A DNA stretch of 64,000 nt, taken from Veillonella sp. KGMB01456 (GTDB taxonomy: Bacteria; Bacillota; Negativicutes; Veillonellales; Veillonellaceae). A program made the translations under genes and the position numbers. The stretch is from positions 1 to 64,000 of the forward strand of contig NZ_JALKIG010000003.1 in assembly GCF_023051165.1 (NCBI RefSeq). Direction: 5' to 3'. The notes below the pieces were generated by a model, which saw only the letters and a program-made list of their open reading frames with translations, was not told the origin of the DNA and did not search any database. Shown piece by piece: positions 15,115 to 35,645 of this stretch (positions within the stretch are counted from its first letter, which is position 1; each line of letters opens with the position of its first letter).

Positions 15115-16014
15115 ATGGATAAGGAAAAAATGAGTCAACGAATGACTCAAATTCTTGCGGATTTTGTAGGCTATTTTTCTAAAGTATTGCCGGATGATGT
15201 TGACGCTAAATTAAAAGAATTGGCAGCGGACGAAAAGAATCCGTTGGCAAAAACGATTTATGACACAATGCACAAGAATATGGAATTGGCTAAAGAATTG
15301 AGCCGTCCATCCTGTCAGGATACAGGCGTATTGCAGTATTGGGTAAAATGTGGTGCCAACTTCCCGTTAATCGGCGAATTGGAAACTATTTTGCGCGATG
15401 CTACCTATCAGGCTACGCAGGAAACTCCATTGCGTCATAACTGTGTAGAAACATTTGACGAATTCAACACGAAGAAAAACATCGGCTTAACGGCTCCATA
15501 CATTCTTTGGGACATTGTTCCTGACCGTGACGATGTAGAAATTTACCCTTACATGGCCGGCGGCGGTTGCTCCTTGCCGGGCAGCGGTAAAACTTTAATG
15601 CCGGGCGAAGGTTACGAAGGGGTTGCCAAATTCGTACTCGATTTGATGACGTCTTACGGCTTAAATGCATGCCCACCGTTATTGGTAGGCGTAGGTATTG
15701 CTACCTCCATTGACACCGCAGCTTTATACTCCAAAAAAGCGATCATGCGTCCGGTAGGTTCTCATAATCCTAATAAAAACGCAGCGTATATGGAACAATT
15801 GTTGGAAGATGGCATCAATGCCCTTCATTTAGGACCGCAAGGTATGGGCGGCGACAAATCCGTTATGGGTGTTAATATCGAAAACGGTACCCGTCATCCT
15901 TCCGTTTTGAGCGTAGCTGTTAACGTTGGTTGCTGGAATCACCGTCGTGGTCACTTAGTGTTTACTAAAGATGGTCAGTGTACTGTTTTATCGCATAGTG
16001 GGGTGAAATACTAA
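15115..16014 (+). CDS. ttdA: L(+)-tartrate dehydratase/class I fumarase alpha subunit
   Basis: A 299-residue alpha subunit of an oxygen-sensitive [4Fe-4S] hydro-lyase. It resembles E. coli TtdA closely in length (303) and sequence: RPSCQDTG near residue 63, [11 protein letters not shown] near 144, [15 protein letters not shown] near 183, and [13 protein letters not shown] near 258. The three cysteines in these blocks are the expected cluster ligands. The two-subunit class I fumarases share the same fold, so the enzyme may dehydrate tartrate to oxaloacetate, or malate to fumarate; the second would suit the organism's pathway. The RBS AAAGGAGG is strong. Its stop overlaps the ttdB start. Confidence 0.87.
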
Positions 16015-16631
16015 TGGAAAAGAAAATCTTAACAACACCGATTTCCGCAGAAGATTTAGAAGGCATTAAAGCCGGTGATATTGTATATTTAACGGGCCAC
16101 ATTACAACTTGCCGTGACGTAGCTCATCGCCGTTTGATTGAATACGGTCGTGAACTGCCGGTTGACGTTCGCAACGGTGCTATTTTGCACGCCGGTCCGA
16201 TTGTAAAAACTATCGATGAAGCTAACGGTAAATACGAAATGATTTCCGTAGGTCCTACGACCAGTATGCGTATGGAAAAATTCGAATACGATTTCGTAAA
16301 ACATACCGGTGTTCGCCTCATCGTCGGTAAAGGCGGTATGGGCCCGGGCACTCAAAAAGCTTGTCAGGAATTCAAAGCGTTGCACTTGGTATTCCCGGCC
16401 GGTAATGCCGTATTGGCCGCTACAGAAGTAGAAGAAATCGAACAAGCTAACTGGAAAGAGTTAGGCATGCCGGAAACATTGTGGACTTGCCGTGTTAAAG
16501 AATTCGGTCCATTGATCGTGTCCATCGACACCTATGGCAACAACTGGTTCGAACAGAAAAAAGTGGAATACAACGAAACGAAAGAAAAAGTGCTTGCTGA
16601 AATTAACAAACACGTAAGCTTCATTAAATAA
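16014..16631 (+). CDS. ttdB: L(+)-tartrate dehydratase/class I fumarase beta subunit
   Basis: A 205-residue beta subunit, close to E. coli TtdB (201) along its whole length: [20 protein letters not shown] at the start, [18 protein letters not shown] near residue 26, [11 protein letters not shown] near 80, [13 protein letters not shown] near 107. The beta subunit completes the active site of the hydro-lyase. It shares one base with the alpha-subunit stop (TAATG), so translation is coupled. As with ttdA, tartrate or malate/fumarate could be the substrate. Confidence 0.88.
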
Positions 16632-16970: not shown

Positions 16971-17348
16971 ATGAATATAGAAGTGGGATTAAAGGGTGAG
17001 GCAACAGTGGTTGTTAATGAGCACAATATTGCCAAAACGATGAAAAGCGGTGCTCTTGAAGTATTCGCTACGCCTGCAATGTGTGCCCTTATGGAAGAAG
17101 CGGCGGTAGCCGCTTTGGCCGGTAGATTACCGGATGGTGACGGTACGGTGGGTATTTCCCTCAGTATTTCCCACGATAAGGCATCGGCTATGGGTGCTCA
17201 GATTCGTGCGGAAGCGAAGGTATCAGCTGTGGATGGCCGTAAAATCAGCTATGAAGTGGCTGCTTATGAAGGCGATACTTGTATTGGGAAGGGAACGCAC
17301 GAACGATTTGTCATCAACAACGAAAAGTTCATGAGTAAGTTAAAATAG
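16971..17348 (+). CDS. FlK-like hotdog-fold thioesterase
   Basis: A 125-residue single-domain hotdog protein similar to fluoroacetyl-CoA thioesterase FlK and its housekeeping relatives. The catalytic residues of FlK appear to be kept: Thr in FATPAM (about residue 34), Glu in ALMEEAA (about 42) and His in SISHDKASAMG (about 68). It probably hydrolyses a short acyl-CoA in the cytoplasm; the natural substrate is unknown. RBS AGGAGG precedes ATG 16971. It stands alone, with a tandem repeat array directly after it. Confidence 0.85.
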   Translation: MNIEVGLKGEATVVVNEHNIAKTMKSGALEVFATPAMCALMEEAAVAALAGRLPDGDGTVGISLSISHDKASAMGAQIRAEAKVSAVDGRKISYEVAAYEGDTCIGKGTHERFVINNEKFMSKLK

Positions 17349-17870: not shown

Positions 17871-18440
17871 ATGGTAAGCGAAATAGATTCTATTATCGGT
17901 TATCATTGTGCGCCGGCAATACGGGGAATCAAGGTGGCGAATCTTGTGGCCATTCCACGAGATATGGATTTGCATTTGACAACGGCTTTGTCGGCGTATA
18001 ATGAGAAATTTAATGATCGCGGCTTGTTCTTTTATGAACTGTGTCATTGCGATCGGCGAAGATTATTGTTGGTGTTCCGCAAACGAATGTTAGAGGAATA
18101 TTTACGTCGTCCCGAACATGCTGCGTTTTTAAAACTCTACGGCTATTTGCCGACGGAATCTTTGGAAACGTGGTTTGAGCGCTTAAAAGGTCGTTTGGAA
18201 GAACGGATGGACTTTCCTCATGAAATCGGTCTGTTCTTGGGCTATCCACTCCACGATGTACGCTCTTTTATTCGTATGAAAGGCGCGGGCTATAAGCTTT
18301 GCGGCGAATGGAAAGTCTATGGCAATCCTATGTCCGCCATGCATTCGTTTCACTGTTTTCGGGCATGCAGAAATTACTGTCATACCCAGCTTTTAAATGG
18401 TAAACAATTAGAGTCTTTGGTAGCCGTAACGGCATGCTAG
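17871..18440 (+). CDS. DUF3793 family protein
   Basis: A 189-residue protein of the DUF3793 family, whose function is unknown. Family hallmarks are HCAPAIRGIKVANL near residue 12, ELCHCDRRRLLLVFR near 56, and FPHEIGLFLGYPLHDVRSFI near 114, then GEWKVYGNP near 143. It is soluble and has a conserved Cys-His-Cys in the CHC motif that might bind a metal. It lies 14 bases before a flavodoxin gene behind a shared promoter. This pairing suggests a role linked to electron transfer or low iron, which is inference. The ATG at 17871 has only a modest ribosome-binding site. Confidence 0.85.
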   Translation: MVSEIDSIIGYHCAPAIRGIKVANLVAIPRDMDLHLTTALSAYNEKFNDRGLFFYELCHCDRRRLLLVFRKRMLEEYLRRPEHAAFLKLYGYLPTESLETWFERLKGRLEERMDFPHEIGLFLGYPLHDVRSFIRMKGAGYKLCGEWKVYGNPMSAMHSFHCFRACRNYCHTQLLNGKQLESLVAVTAC

Positions 18441-18454
18441 TAGGAGGTAATCAC

Positions 18455-18874
18455 ATGATTGGTGTAATTTATTGGTCTGGTACAGGTAACACACAAGCAA
18501 TGGCAGAAGCAATCGGTAAAGGTATTGCCGGTGCAGGTCAAGAAGTAGTCGTTAAATCCGTGTCTGAAATTTCCGCTGATGAAGCAGCTGCTTTTGACAA
18601 ATTAGCTTTAGGTTGTGCTGATATGGGTGCTGAACAGTTGGAAGAAATGGAATTCGAACCATTCTACACAGCTTTGGAACCTAAATTATCCGGCAAAAAA
18701 GTAATTCTTTTCGGCTCCTATGGTTGGGGCGGTACTTGGCTCGAAGATTGGGCTGAACGCGTAAAAGCAACCGGTGCTGAAATCGTAGCTGATAACTTGC
18801 CTGTTTTCGGTGCTCCTGATGATGCTGCTTTGGCAGACTGCGAAGCACGCGGTAAAGCATTGGCTGACGCATAA
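18455..18874 (+). CDS. short-chain flavodoxin
   Basis: A 139-residue flavodoxin of the Megasphaera/Clostridium type. It has the FMN-phosphate loop YWSGTGNTQAM at residues 6-16, GCADMGAEQLEEMEFEPF near 50 and the flavin-binding FGSYGWGG near 86. Such flavodoxins carry low-potential electrons and replace ferredoxin when iron is scarce. RBS AGGAGG lies before ATG 18455. The promoter region upstream has a clear operator-like palindrome, so expression is probably conditional. Confidence 0.95.
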   Translation: MIGVIYWSGTGNTQAMAEAIGKGIAGAGQEVVVKSVSEISADEAAAFDKLALGCADMGAEQLEEMEFEPFYTALEPKLSGKKVILFGSYGWGGTWLEDWAERVKATGAEIVADNLPVFGAPDDAALADCEARGKALADA

Positions 18875-19240: not shown

Positions 19241-20407
19241 TTATTTTTTCAAACCGTTAATGAATCGTTCAATTCGGTTCAACGCTTCCTGAATGGTTTC
19301 GCGAGATGATGCGTAGGAGCAGCGGATGCGTCCTTTACCGCATTCGCCGAAAGCGGAGCCAGGTACTACGGCTACGTGTTCCTGTTGTAACAACTGAACG
19401 GCGAAATCAAAGTCACTTAAGCCGCAACTTGAAATATCAGGGAATACATAGAAGGCACCTTCCGGAACCGCGATGGGAAGCCCCATCTTTTGGAAGCCTG
19501 CAACAATTAAATCGCGCCGTGCTTCGTATTCTTCACGCATAGCAACTACGCTGTCGTCGCATTCGTTGAGTGCCACGATGGCGGCATGTTGAATCGGGGT
19601 AGCCGGTGCAACAATGCTGTACTGGTGAATTTTGATAGCCTGTTCAATAATTTCCGCAGGAGCCAAGAGGAAGCCGATACGTAAACCGGTCATAGCGTAA
19701 GCTTTGGAGAAACCGTTTAAAATAAGGGTGCGTTCTTTCATGCCCGGTAAGGCGGCAATGCTCGTATGAGTGCGACCATAGGTTAATTCGGAATAAATCT
19801 CATCACTTACAACGATGAGGTCATGTTTTTTTACAACCTCCGCAATGCCTTCCAGTTCTTCCCGTGTTAAAATGGCGCCGGTCGGATTACTTGGGTACCC
19901 CATGAGTAACACTTTAGTTTTAGGAGTAACCGCTTTTTCAATGGCAGTCGGTGTAATTTTGAAGCCTTCTTCCAAATGAGTCGGCACCATGACAGCCACG
20001 CCTTTATTTAGTTTGACTTCCGCTGCATAGGCCACATAGGATGGATCCGGAATGAGGACTTCGTCCCCTTCATCTAGCAATACACGCATAGCTAAATCGA
20101 TGGCTTCGCTGGCGCCGACGGTGAGCATCATTTCGTTTTCGGTATAGTCAACGCCATAGCGCTTGCCGTACCATTTTCGAATGGCCGTGAGAAGCGGTAA
20201 TAAGCCGGCGTTACTGGTATAACTTGTTTCTTTATTTTCAAGGCTTTTGATAGCGGCGTCCAGTACTTTCTGCGGTGGTGCATAGTCCGGTTCGCCAACG
20301 CCTAATGACAGCACATTATCCATGGATAAGGCCATCTCCCAAATTTTACGAATGCCTGAAGCAGGCAATTCTTGTGCTGTTTTTGAGATGTAATTGTTCC
20401 AATTCAT
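19241..20407 (-). CDS. class I PLP-dependent aminotransferase (aspartate-type)
   Basis: A 388-residue fold-type I aminotransferase close to the Bacillus/Thermus group of aspartate aminotransferases and PatA/YugH. The PLP-binding lysine is in NGFSKAYAMTGLRIGF near residue 230. Other family blocks are LGVGEPDY near 36, YPSNPTG near 170, VSDEIYSELTY near 200 and RCSYASS near 365. It probably moves amino groups between aspartate or another amino acid and 2-oxoglutarate; the exact donor cannot be told. The RBS AAGGAGG precedes its ATG. It is alone on the minus strand. Confidence 0.9.
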   Translation of the reverse strand: MNWNNYISKTAQELPASGIRKIWEMALSMDNVLSLGVGEPDYAPPQKVLDAAIKSLENKETSYTSNAGLLPLLTAIRKWYGKRYGVDYTENEMMLTVGASEAIDLAMRVLLDEGDEVLIPDPSYVAYAAEVKLNKGVAVMVPTHLEEGFKITPTAIEKAVTPKTKVLLMGYPSNPTGAILTREELEGIAEVVKKHDLIVVSDEIYSELTYGRTHTSIAALPGMKERTLILNGFSKAYAMTGLRIGFLLAPAEIIEQAIKIHQYSIVAPATPIQHAAIVALNECDDSVVAMREEYEARRDLIVAGFQKMGLPIAVPEGAFYVFPDISSCGLSDFDFAVQLLQQEHVAVVPGSAFGECGKGRIRCSYASSRETIQEALNRIERFINGLKK

Positions 20408-20643: not shown

Positions 20644-21780
20644 ATGGAGACCTTGTGTAATGAGCGGTTTGTGGTGACCTATCAGATAGAAGCGCCGAGC
20701 TATGAAGAGGCGAAAGCCGTTGCTTGGGGTGTACAAGTGGAACAAACCATTGAATTTCCTTATGATTTTGTAACGAATGAAGATATTAAACGCGATATAG
20801 TAGGGCGCCTTGAATCGTTGGAACCTACCGGTGACGGCAAATATTATTTGGCTCGCATTTCCTATGGTGTGGAATGCAGTGCTTTTGAAGCTACGCAATT
20901 TTTGAATGTGGTGTTTGGTAATTCGTCTTTGCAGCCTCATATTTGGGTGGTGGATATTGACCTTGCGCCATCGCTGATTGATTGCTTTAAAGGACCACGA
21001 TTTGGTTTAAACGGTATCCGTGAATTGGTGAAAACACCAAAGCGCGCTATGATACAAGCGGTTATTAAGCCGATGGGAATATCACCGGCTCAATTGGCGG
21101 ACATGTGTAAAGCCTATGTGCAGGGTGGAGCCGATGTGATTAAAGATGATCACGGCATTACGAATCAACCGTTCTGTACGTTTGAAGAACGAATTAAACG
21201 TTGTGCGGCCGCTGTAGCTGAAACAAATGCGCAAACCGGGCAGCATACGCTGTATGCCGCCAATGTATCGGCCGACGGTGAAGCGGTGTTGGAGCGAGCT
21301 CATTATGCTAAAGCCATGGGCGCTACGGCGTTAATGGTGGCACCGGCTTTAGTTGGTTACGGGTGGCTCCATCGTTTGGCTACGGATGATGAATTAGGCT
21401 TGCCGATTATTACGCATCCGGCCATGATGGGCGGGTTTGTATTACCGGGGATTTCCGGTATTGCCGACTACTTATGGATGGGCTTATTGCCGCGTTTGTT
21501 TGGTTCCGATATGTCGATTTTTGTGTCCTATGGCGGCCGTTTTACCTTTACGGCGCAGCAATGCCAACGTATTTCCGCCTACTGTACGAATCCGATTGAA
21601 GGTTTGAAAGCTACGTGTCCTTCACCGGGCGGTGGTGTTACGGAAAAACGTTTGCCGGAGTTACTGGATATTTACGGTCCGGATACGATGTTCTTGGTCG
21701 GTGGCGATATGTTCCGTCGCGGTCCCGATTTGGCGGCCAATATGAAGGCTTTTGTTGAGTTATTAGCTCAGCACAGTTAA
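20644..21780 (+). CDS. RuBisCO-like protein (form IV)
   Basis: A 378-residue member of the RuBisCO large-subunit superfamily. It has an N-terminal ferredoxin-like domain and a TIM barrel with IKPMG (Lys142, matching Lys175 of RuBisCO) and GGADVIKDDHG (Lys167 and Asp169, matching Lys201 and Asp203). THPAM follows with His258, then the phosphate-binding SPGGG (327-331) and LVGG (351-354). Position 170 is His where RuBisCO has metal ligand Glu204, and the loop-6 region (SYGGRF) seems to lack Lys334, so CO2 fixation is unlikely. Known relatives are enolases or sugar-acid decarboxylases. The gene has RBS AAGGAGG and lies 99 bases before larE. Its reaction is unknown. Confidence 0.88.
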   Translation: METLCNERFVVTYQIEAPSYEEAKAVAWGVQVEQTIEFPYDFVTNEDIKRDIVGRLESLEPTGDGKYYLARISYGVECSAFEATQFLNVVFGNSSLQPHIWVVDIDLAPSLIDCFKGPRFGLNGIRELVKTPKRAMIQAVIKPMGISPAQLADMCKAYVQGGADVIKDDHGITNQPFCTFEERIKRCAAAVAETNAQTGQHTLYAANVSADGEAVLERAHYAKAMGATALMVAPALVGYGWLHRLATDDELGLPIITHPAMMGGFVLPGISGIADYLWMGLLPRLFGSDMSIFVSYGGRFTFTAQQCQRISAYCTNPIEGLKATCPSPGGGVTEKRLPELLDIYGPDTMFLVGGDMFRRGPDLAANMKAFVELLAQHS

Positions 21781-21879
21781 ATTTACAGGCGGTGGCAGAA
21801 TCTTAGTTTGAACTGTGTGAGAACAGTTTGTTTATGACGTGCACCAACTGTTTTATACAAAGAGAAAGAGAGACAAAAA

Positions 21880-22713
21880 ATGAGTTCAAGTGAGTTGAAT
21901 ACTGAATTGCAGACTAAACTGTCTGCCTTGGAAGCTGCTTTACAGCGTATGGGGAGCGCTGTAGTGGCGTTTTCCGGCGGTGTAGACAGTACCTTTTTAG
22001 CGGCGGTGGCCCATAAAGTATTGGGCGATAACGCACAGGCGTTTACAGTGAGTTCGCCAACCTTACCGGAGGAAGAAATTGAAGATGCCAAACGCTTTGC
22101 CAAGGCTATAGGTATCAAGCATACGGTAGTGGAAATTAACGAATTGGAGATGCCCGATTTTACGCGCAACGATCCGGACCGTTGTTATTATTGCAAAAAA
22201 AATCGTTTTCAGAAGTTAATCGACTGGGCTAAAGAACAGGGGATTAACGGCGTGCTTGACGGTGGTAATTTGGATGATAAAAAAGACTATCGCCCCGGTA
22301 TGCGCGTTTTGGAAGAGCTTGGCACCGTTCGCAGTCCTTTGTTGGAAAACGGCTTTACCAAGGATGATATTCGCGCCGTAGCGAAGGCTTGGGGCTTAGA
22401 AGTATGGGATAAACCAAGTTCGCCATGCTTGGCTACGCGTATTCCTTACAATCATGAGATTACCGGCGAAGCGTTGACGATGATTGAAAAAGGCGAAAAG
22501 TATTTGCATCAATTCATTGACGGTCCTTTGCGGGTGCGATACCATGAAGGTATGGCACGCATTGAAGTAAGTCGTGAAGATTTTCAGATTTTTGCCGATG
22601 ATGAACGGCGTGAAGCGATTCGTAAAGCGTTTGAAGAATTCGGCTTCACCTATGTGAGTGTCGATTTACAAAGCTTCAAGAGCGGTAATTTGAATCGTGA
22701 AGTGAAACAGTAA
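21880..22713 (+). CDS. larE: LarE-type ATP-dependent sulfur transferase
   Basis: A 277-residue PP-loop ATP pyrophosphatase of the LarE family, which adds sulfur to a pyridinium dicarboxylate during synthesis of the nickel-pincer cofactor of lactate racemase. The SGGVDS loop is at residues 32-37. Cys102 and Cys105 (RCYYCKK) and Cys183 (SPCLATR) form the three-cysteine pattern of LarE proteins that carry a [4Fe-4S] cluster, unlike the single sacrificial cysteine of the Lactobacillus enzyme. No larA, larB or larC occurs in the window. The start ATG 21880 has a weak GAGAG site. It follows the RuBisCO-like gene. Confidence 0.9.
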   Translation: MSSSELNTELQTKLSALEAALQRMGSAVVAFSGGVDSTFLAAVAHKVLGDNAQAFTVSSPTLPEEEIEDAKRFAKAIGIKHTVVEINELEMPDFTRNDPDRCYYCKKNRFQKLIDWAKEQGINGVLDGGNLDDKKDYRPGMRVLEELGTVRSPLLENGFTKDDIRAVAKAWGLEVWDKPSSPCLATRIPYNHEITGEALTMIEKGEKYLHQFIDGPLRVRYHEGMARIEVSREDFQIFADDERREAIRKAFEEFGFTYVSVDLQSFKSGNLNREVKQ

Positions 22714-35394: not shown

Positions 35395-35645
35395 TATTTG
35401 TATAACAAAGCTGAGATAAGGAAAAATCTTCTCATAGCGTGGCAGAGAGCGTTGGTAAGGTGCGAGCAACGTACGTGAAAGGAAGAGGGTAGCCTTTGAG
35501 CTGACTTGATGAAGCAATCTTTGGATTGTGTGTAGTTTTGTCCGGTTAACCCCGTTAGAGGTAATGAGTGATTGCAACGGCAATAATCTAGGTGGTACCG
35601 CGGAAGTTAAGCCCTTTCGTCCTAATGGACGAGAGGGCTTTTTTT
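35395..35645 (+). promoter_or_regulatory. T-box riboswitch (valine-specific) controlling valS
   Basis: The invariant GGTGGTACCGCGG lies at 35591-35603 and is followed by the terminator GCCCTTTCGTCC/GGACGAGAGGGC with a T-run (35611-35647). Upstream sequence folds as a long Stem I. The triplet GTA at 35489-35491, followed by G in the GAGGGTAGCC segment, is the probable specifier, a valine codon that matches the gene downstream. Uncharged tRNA-Val would stabilise the antiterminator and allow valS expression. Confidence 0.93.

Follow-up and report, generated by a model that had tools for sequence, protein, structure and literature searches.

R. palustris RLP1 and the RLP of R. rubrum, both RuBisCO-like proteins (RLPs) of the 'DeepYkr' kind, are 5-methylthioribulose-1-phosphate (MTRu-1P) 1,3-isomerases, with kcat values of 1.3 and 1.2 per second, respectively (PMC5893883). 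The MTA-isoprenoid pathway is oxygen-independent and operates anaerobically in R. rubrum, where the MTXu-5P sulfurylase Rru_A2000 is a cupin (PMC4958253). Veillonella and Dialister were named in 2018 among the species with homologues of RLP, cupin, MtnP and MtnA (PMC5893883), and a Veillonella 'RuBisCO Form IV ... involved in methionine salvage' has served as a strain marker (PMC4384745). As the Veillonella gene set is already contained in the 2018 survey, the RLP described here is a new example of a kind already known and predicted.

The gene lies in a stretch of 64,000 nucleotides from Veillonella sp. KGMB01456, analysed as a whole and referred to below as the window. We propose, with a probability of roughly 0.85, that its product is a DeepYkr-type isomerase, which would convert MTRu-1P into 1-methylthioxylulose-5-phosphate (MTXu-5P) within an oxygen-independent MTA-isoprenoid shunt. 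The reactions assigned to it are predicted by analogy with those of R. rubrum and R. palustris, while the gene content, clade, residues, fold and co-occurrence were observed here.

The RLP gene and its active-site residues

The RLP gene (window positions 20644-21780, plus strand) starts with ATG and encodes a protein of 378 amino acids, predicted to be a 5-methylthioribulose-1-phosphate 1,3-isomerase from its reading frame, its Pfam match, its similarity to the solved structure 3qfw and its position in the tree. Pfam RuBisCO_large (PF00016) is the sole Pfam family matched by the protein (98 bits, cut-off 30), and no second PF00016 gene was found in the host genome. The protein is 97% identical to its counterpart in V. 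ratti, a species to which the host genome is near. The presence of the gene in 46 of 60 related genomes marks it as conserved and not as a chance reading frame.

Residues were numbered through an alignment with spinach RbcL. Lys142 (codon 21067-21069; this and all following codons are on the plus strand) aligns with spinach Lys175, the run Lys167-Asp168-Asp169-His170 (21142-21153) with Lys201, Asp202, Asp203 and position 204, and His258 (21415-21417) with His294. The SPGGG loop (residues 327-331; 21622-21636) falls on the phosphate loop S379-G380-G381, and the VGG loop (residues 352-354; 21697-21705) on G403-G404. The earlier note on this DNA had listed Lys142, Lys167, Asp169, His258 and both loops as kept, had placed His170 at Glu204 and had read the protein as a form IV enzyme. 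These points hold: it is a form IV RLP with altered catalytic residues. It had also thought loop-6 Lys334 missing. There is indeed no lysine; the position is not simply lost, however, but is held by an invariant arginine, Arg299 (21538-21540). Thus, neither Glu204 nor Lys334 is restored by the alignment.

Lys142, the KDDH run, His258 and Arg299 are each identical in 80 of 80 named homologues, a set biased towards His at position 204 since one of the two search patterns used to collect it contained KDDH. The structure 3qfw and the Veillonellales homologues, which were retrieved without that pattern, both carry His204 and Arg334 as well, and 3qfw also has the complete KDDH run. On this sequence comparison, His204 and Arg334 are normal features of the RLP clade and no pointer to an undescribed reaction, which removes the puzzle of a metal-site histidine combined with a loop-6 arginine. 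A literature search returned nothing specific on position 204 of RLPs. With bona fide RuBisCO (forms I-III) the protein has the fold, Lys201 and Asp203 in common, but it lacks Lys177, Glu204, Arg295, His327 and Lys334. Such an identity is ruled out by the gap at Lys177 and by the replacement of Glu204 by His, His327 by Ile and Lys334 by Arg; Arg295 is replaced by Pro.

Closest structure, fold and phylogeny

The best sequence match was the solved R. palustris RLP 3qfw (E = 6e-71, compared with 4e-39 for MtnW), which also ranked first by profile search and by structure comparison. A second R. palustris RLP has been solved as 2qyg and is titled rlp2, from which we infer that 3qfw is RLP1 or its orthologue. 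An AlphaFold2 model of the Veillonella RLP (pLDDT 93.6) found its best structural matches among RLPs, with Z = 47.4 and 1.6 Å over 348 residues for 3qfw. MtnW structures came next at Z = 45-46, a difference so small that the fold alone cannot separate the DeepYkr type from MtnW. In a maximum-likelihood tree, a check that the earlier note had proposed, the window RLP lies in a Veillonellales clade (98/86) nested in a clade defined by H204 and R334 (97/95), and MtnW forms a separate clade (100/96). Long branches for spinach and 3qfw leave the exact placement of 3qfw unsure. With 3qfw taken as RLP1, the protein groups with the R. palustris RLP1 type rather than with MtnW.

The DeepYkr RLP1 proteins of R. 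palustris and R. rubrum resemble the Veillonella RLP in length (~378 amino acids), fold, H204 and R334. Sequence identity to 3qfw is only 34-38%, and the likeness to the R. rubrum enzyme, Rru_A1998, is drawn through 3qfw. The Veillonella host differs in belonging to the Veillonellaceae and in its obligately fermentative metabolism.

MtnW of the YkrW clade (Bacillus and Geobacillus), the 2,3-diketo-5-methylthiopentyl-1-phosphate enolase of canonical methionine salvage, has the fold and Lys175, Lys201, Asp203 and His294 in common with the RLP, and the two top NCBIfam models for the RLP are MtnW models. The scores, however, are far under the curated cut-offs (193 vs 409 and 145 vs 514 bits), the RLP stands outside the MtnW clade, it has His170 for Glu204 and Arg at position 334 where MtnW has Ser or a Gly-type residue, and the host genome holds no class II aldolase-type MtnB to supply the substrate. 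We regard an MtnW function as extremely improbable. The 3-oxo-isoapionate-4-phosphate decarboxylase OiaX belongs to the same superfamily, but this apionate RLP is ruled out by a score of 86 bits against a curated cut-off of 700. The earlier note was thus right to set both of these enzymes aside. It had considered these two known roles only, and a third, that of the DeepYkr MTRu-1P isomerase, had been left out. The different reaction which it expected holds insofar as the enzyme most likely does not carboxylate, but the known DeepYkr reaction fits sequence, structure and genome content.

Pathway genes in the host genome

The note had further observed that no methionine-salvage genes are adjacent to the RLP, which is true of the neighbours examined, but such genes are present elsewhere in the genome. 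MtnA (TIGR00512, E = 3e-130; G000:C2:119136-120134) and MtnP, which scores above its curated family cut-off, are encoded in one cluster, mtnP-mtnA-ahcY-amidohydrolase, which is broadly conserved among relatives; ahcY is what we take the third gene to be from its own sequence and not from a family search. A cupin gene (G000:C30:11467-11910) matches Rru_A2000/3jzv at E = 2e-38, and an O-acetylhomoserine sulfhydrylase scores 633 bits. The MTA-isoprenoid partners MtnP, MtnA and MTXu-5P cupin are therefore all encoded in the host genome, unlinked to the RLP. Together with the sulfhydrylase they are likewise found in the genomes with DeepYkr RLP1; in R. rubrum, however, the RLP and cupin genes are adjacent, whereas rlp, cupin and mtnPA occupy three separate sites in Veillonella.

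No match to the class II aldolase family (PF00596) was obtained in the host genome, which leaves no candidate for MtnB of canonical salvage or for Ald2 of the DHAP shunt, and by this search both routes look absent. With no such aldolase, no rival consumer of MTRu-1P was found, and the RLP is the sole candidate found for that step.

In the proposed route, MtnP would phosphorolyse methylthioadenosine, MTA, a waste product of SAM that contains sulfur, and MtnA would yield MTRu-1P. The RLP would then enolise MTRu-1P by means of the retained Lys175/Lys201/Asp203-type residues and shift the carbonyl in a 1,3-isomerisation that involves no CO2 or O2 chemistry, with Arg in the place of loop-6 Lys334. 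The cupin would free the methylthio group, leaving 1-deoxyxylulose-5-phosphate (DXP), and O-acetylhomoserine sulfhydrylase would remake methionine from methanethiol.

Co-occurrence among relatives and the supply of DXP

Among 60 relatives, the RLP is present in 46 and the cupin in 45, and the two agree in 59. The single mismatch is G028 (L030:8480-9580), which has the RLP and in which neither the cupin nor an N-terminal Dxs piece was found. One genus, represented by 14 genomes, has neither gene in any of them; since this joint absence is confined to that genus and may be a single joint loss, we treat the co-occurrence as supportive rather than strong.

Dxr is present in every relative with an RLP. 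The host dxs frame (L158:7996-9819, on G000:C26) is interrupted by an in-frame TGA (L158:9331-9333, corresponding to G000:C26:23330-23332), whereas the V. ratti frame is uninterrupted; the host gene could be broken, or the assembly could be in error. An N-terminal Dxs piece was not found in 27 of the 46 RLP-bearing relatives, including G017 (taken as V. parvula SKV38). Two members of this group, G038 and G049, have a full-length frame that may encode a divergent Dxs. Against this background, the MTA-isoprenoid shunt could matter for DXP supply. Ten of the 14 RLP-less relatives, however, also have Dxr and no N-terminal Dxs piece. As Dxs is missing equally often in these genomes, another source of DXP must exist, and we claim no link to the RLP; for the same reason the idea that the RLP stands in for a missing Dxs was rejected. 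The ten genomes (G030, G033, G036, G039, G043, G045, G051, G053, G057 and G058) have Dxr and no recognisable Dxs, RLP or cupin, while in G041, G047, G055 and G059, from the related genus of RLP-less genomes, Dxs was found and Dxr was not.

These data bear on a second substrate for the same isomerase chemistry. If the main substrate in the cell were 5-deoxyribulose-1-phosphate, derived through MtnP and MtnA from the 5'-deoxyadenosine of radical-SAM enzymes, one isomerisation would give DXP directly, with no need of a cupin, and would feed isoprenoids, thiamin and PLP. MtnP/MtnA-type enzymes of other bacteria accept 5-deoxy substrates, and both proteins are encoded in the host genome. The universal presence of Dxr alongside the RLP, the interrupted dxs of the host, the unrecognisable Dxs of many RLP-bearing relatives and the apparently cupin-less G028 would all suit such a route. 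We nonetheless consider it unlikely, if well short of negligible: the cupin, needed for the methylthio substrate only, accompanies the RLP almost throughout the order, Dxs is missing just as often where there is no RLP, and our literature search found no record of a DeepYkr RLP accepting a 5-deoxy sugar. The preferred assignment, MTRu-1P isomerisation, would place the MTA-isoprenoid shunt on firmer genomic footing in anaerobes that are common in the mouth and gut and that in some cases have no recognisable DXP synthase. A separate study reported 181 species in which Dxs alone is missing, mostly unexplained (PMC10663253).

A split transketolase linked to the RLP in other phyla

Of 80 RLP loci fetched, 53 have a split transketolase beside the RLP, all of them outside Veillonella (tktC in 53, tktN in 49, identified on representatives; within the range L083-L148). 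These loci come from Clostridium, Chloroflexota, Nitrospirota, Spirochaetota and Proteobacteria, with the transketolase just upstream of the RLP, and they include mtnA in 18 cases and mtnK in 11. In Clostridium ljungdahlii (L105:1683-7104), the genes run sugar ABC transporter, mtnK, mtnA, tktN, tktC, rlp. SAM riboswitches were seen downstream of the RLP in three transketolase-linked loci from Clostridium and a related Firmicute (L116:7248-7360, L127:7452-7552 and L105:10411-10521).

In the 36 transketolase-RLP genomes tested, no cupin match was convincing (best E = 1e-6), whereas the cupin was present in five of the six RLP genomes tested in which the transketolase neighbour is absent. With the Veillonellales added, 36 genomes have the transketolase only, 19 the cupin only and two neither. 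Three independent contrasts between cupin and transketolase were supported and none went against the pattern, a number too small for significance.

In the numbering of E. coli TktA, the ThDP catalytic glutamate E411 is retained in the RLP-linked subunits (50/50), as are H473 and H261. They differ at H26, which is Tyr (47/47), at H100, which is Met or Leu (47/47), and at D469, which is Gly (50/50). In transketolase these positions line the substrate channel, and H100 makes contact with the donor C1 hydroxyl. Loss of H100 would fit a donor that lacks this hydroxyl, for example a 1-methylthio- or 1-deoxy-ketose. The RLP clade may have two alternative downstream enzymes, the cupin in Veillonella and R. 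rubrum, and a dedicated split transketolase-like ThDP enzyme in many other phyla. The latter would act on the product of the RLP, a 1-methylthio- or 1-deoxy-ketose 5-phosphate, and split it into glyceraldehyde-3-phosphate and a two-carbon unit, possibly freeing methanethiol, in an undescribed oxygen-free salvage of methionine or 5-deoxyribose. We give this proposal even odds; if true, a new salvage pathway would be defined by a split transketolase whose substrate-site residues are altered. A search of the open-access literature found no paper that ties a transketolase to RLPs of this kind.

The host's own split transketolase (G000:C6) was considered as a partner of the RLP and rejected: it belongs to a housekeeping cluster of the ftsEX type, its identity to the RLP-linked type is 31-38%, and it has His at the usual positions.

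Gene neighbourhood and other features of the window

The gene larE lies directly 3' of the RLP (window 20644-22713), an arrangement also seen in L022, L025, L032 and L035, with overlapping ends in some genomes. A further reaction of the RLP, for example one tied to this LarE sulfur transferase, would be in keeping with the adjacency of the two genes in three families of the order, in two of which their ends overlap. Yet the host genome has larC, the ordinary partner of LarE, many relatives with the RLP have no LarE above the cut-off, and the gene content is better explained by the MTA route, so that we hold a reaction of this sort to be quite improbable. The presence of larC and the many RLP-bearing relatives without LarE suggest that the adjacency is likely inherited, though it is kept in three families.

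Upstream, a divergent aminotransferase gene (19241-20407) was examined as a possible MtnE and rejected, as it matches generic aminotransferase models only, none of them above the cut-off; it is not kept beside the RLP in many relatives. In one family the RLP is preceded by a glycosyltransferase, which was taken as unrelated. In L022 (6972-10569), the RLP of which is the same as that of Megasphaera paucivorans (L082), the RLP gene is closely preceded by genes for a nicotinate phosphoribosyltransferase and an ADP-ribosylglycohydrolase-like protein.

No riboswitch was found near the window RLP, the sole find being a T-box leader far off (35404-35627, plus strand; Rfam RF00230, 106 bits). A tartrate-dehydratase-like pair (15115-16631) is followed by the gene of a small protein that belongs to FlK, the fluoroacetyl-CoA thioesterase family (16971-17348; PF22636, E = 6e-33). 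A DUF3793 protein and a flavodoxin are encoded by overlapping genes (17871-18874), which are also found side by side in other Veillonella.
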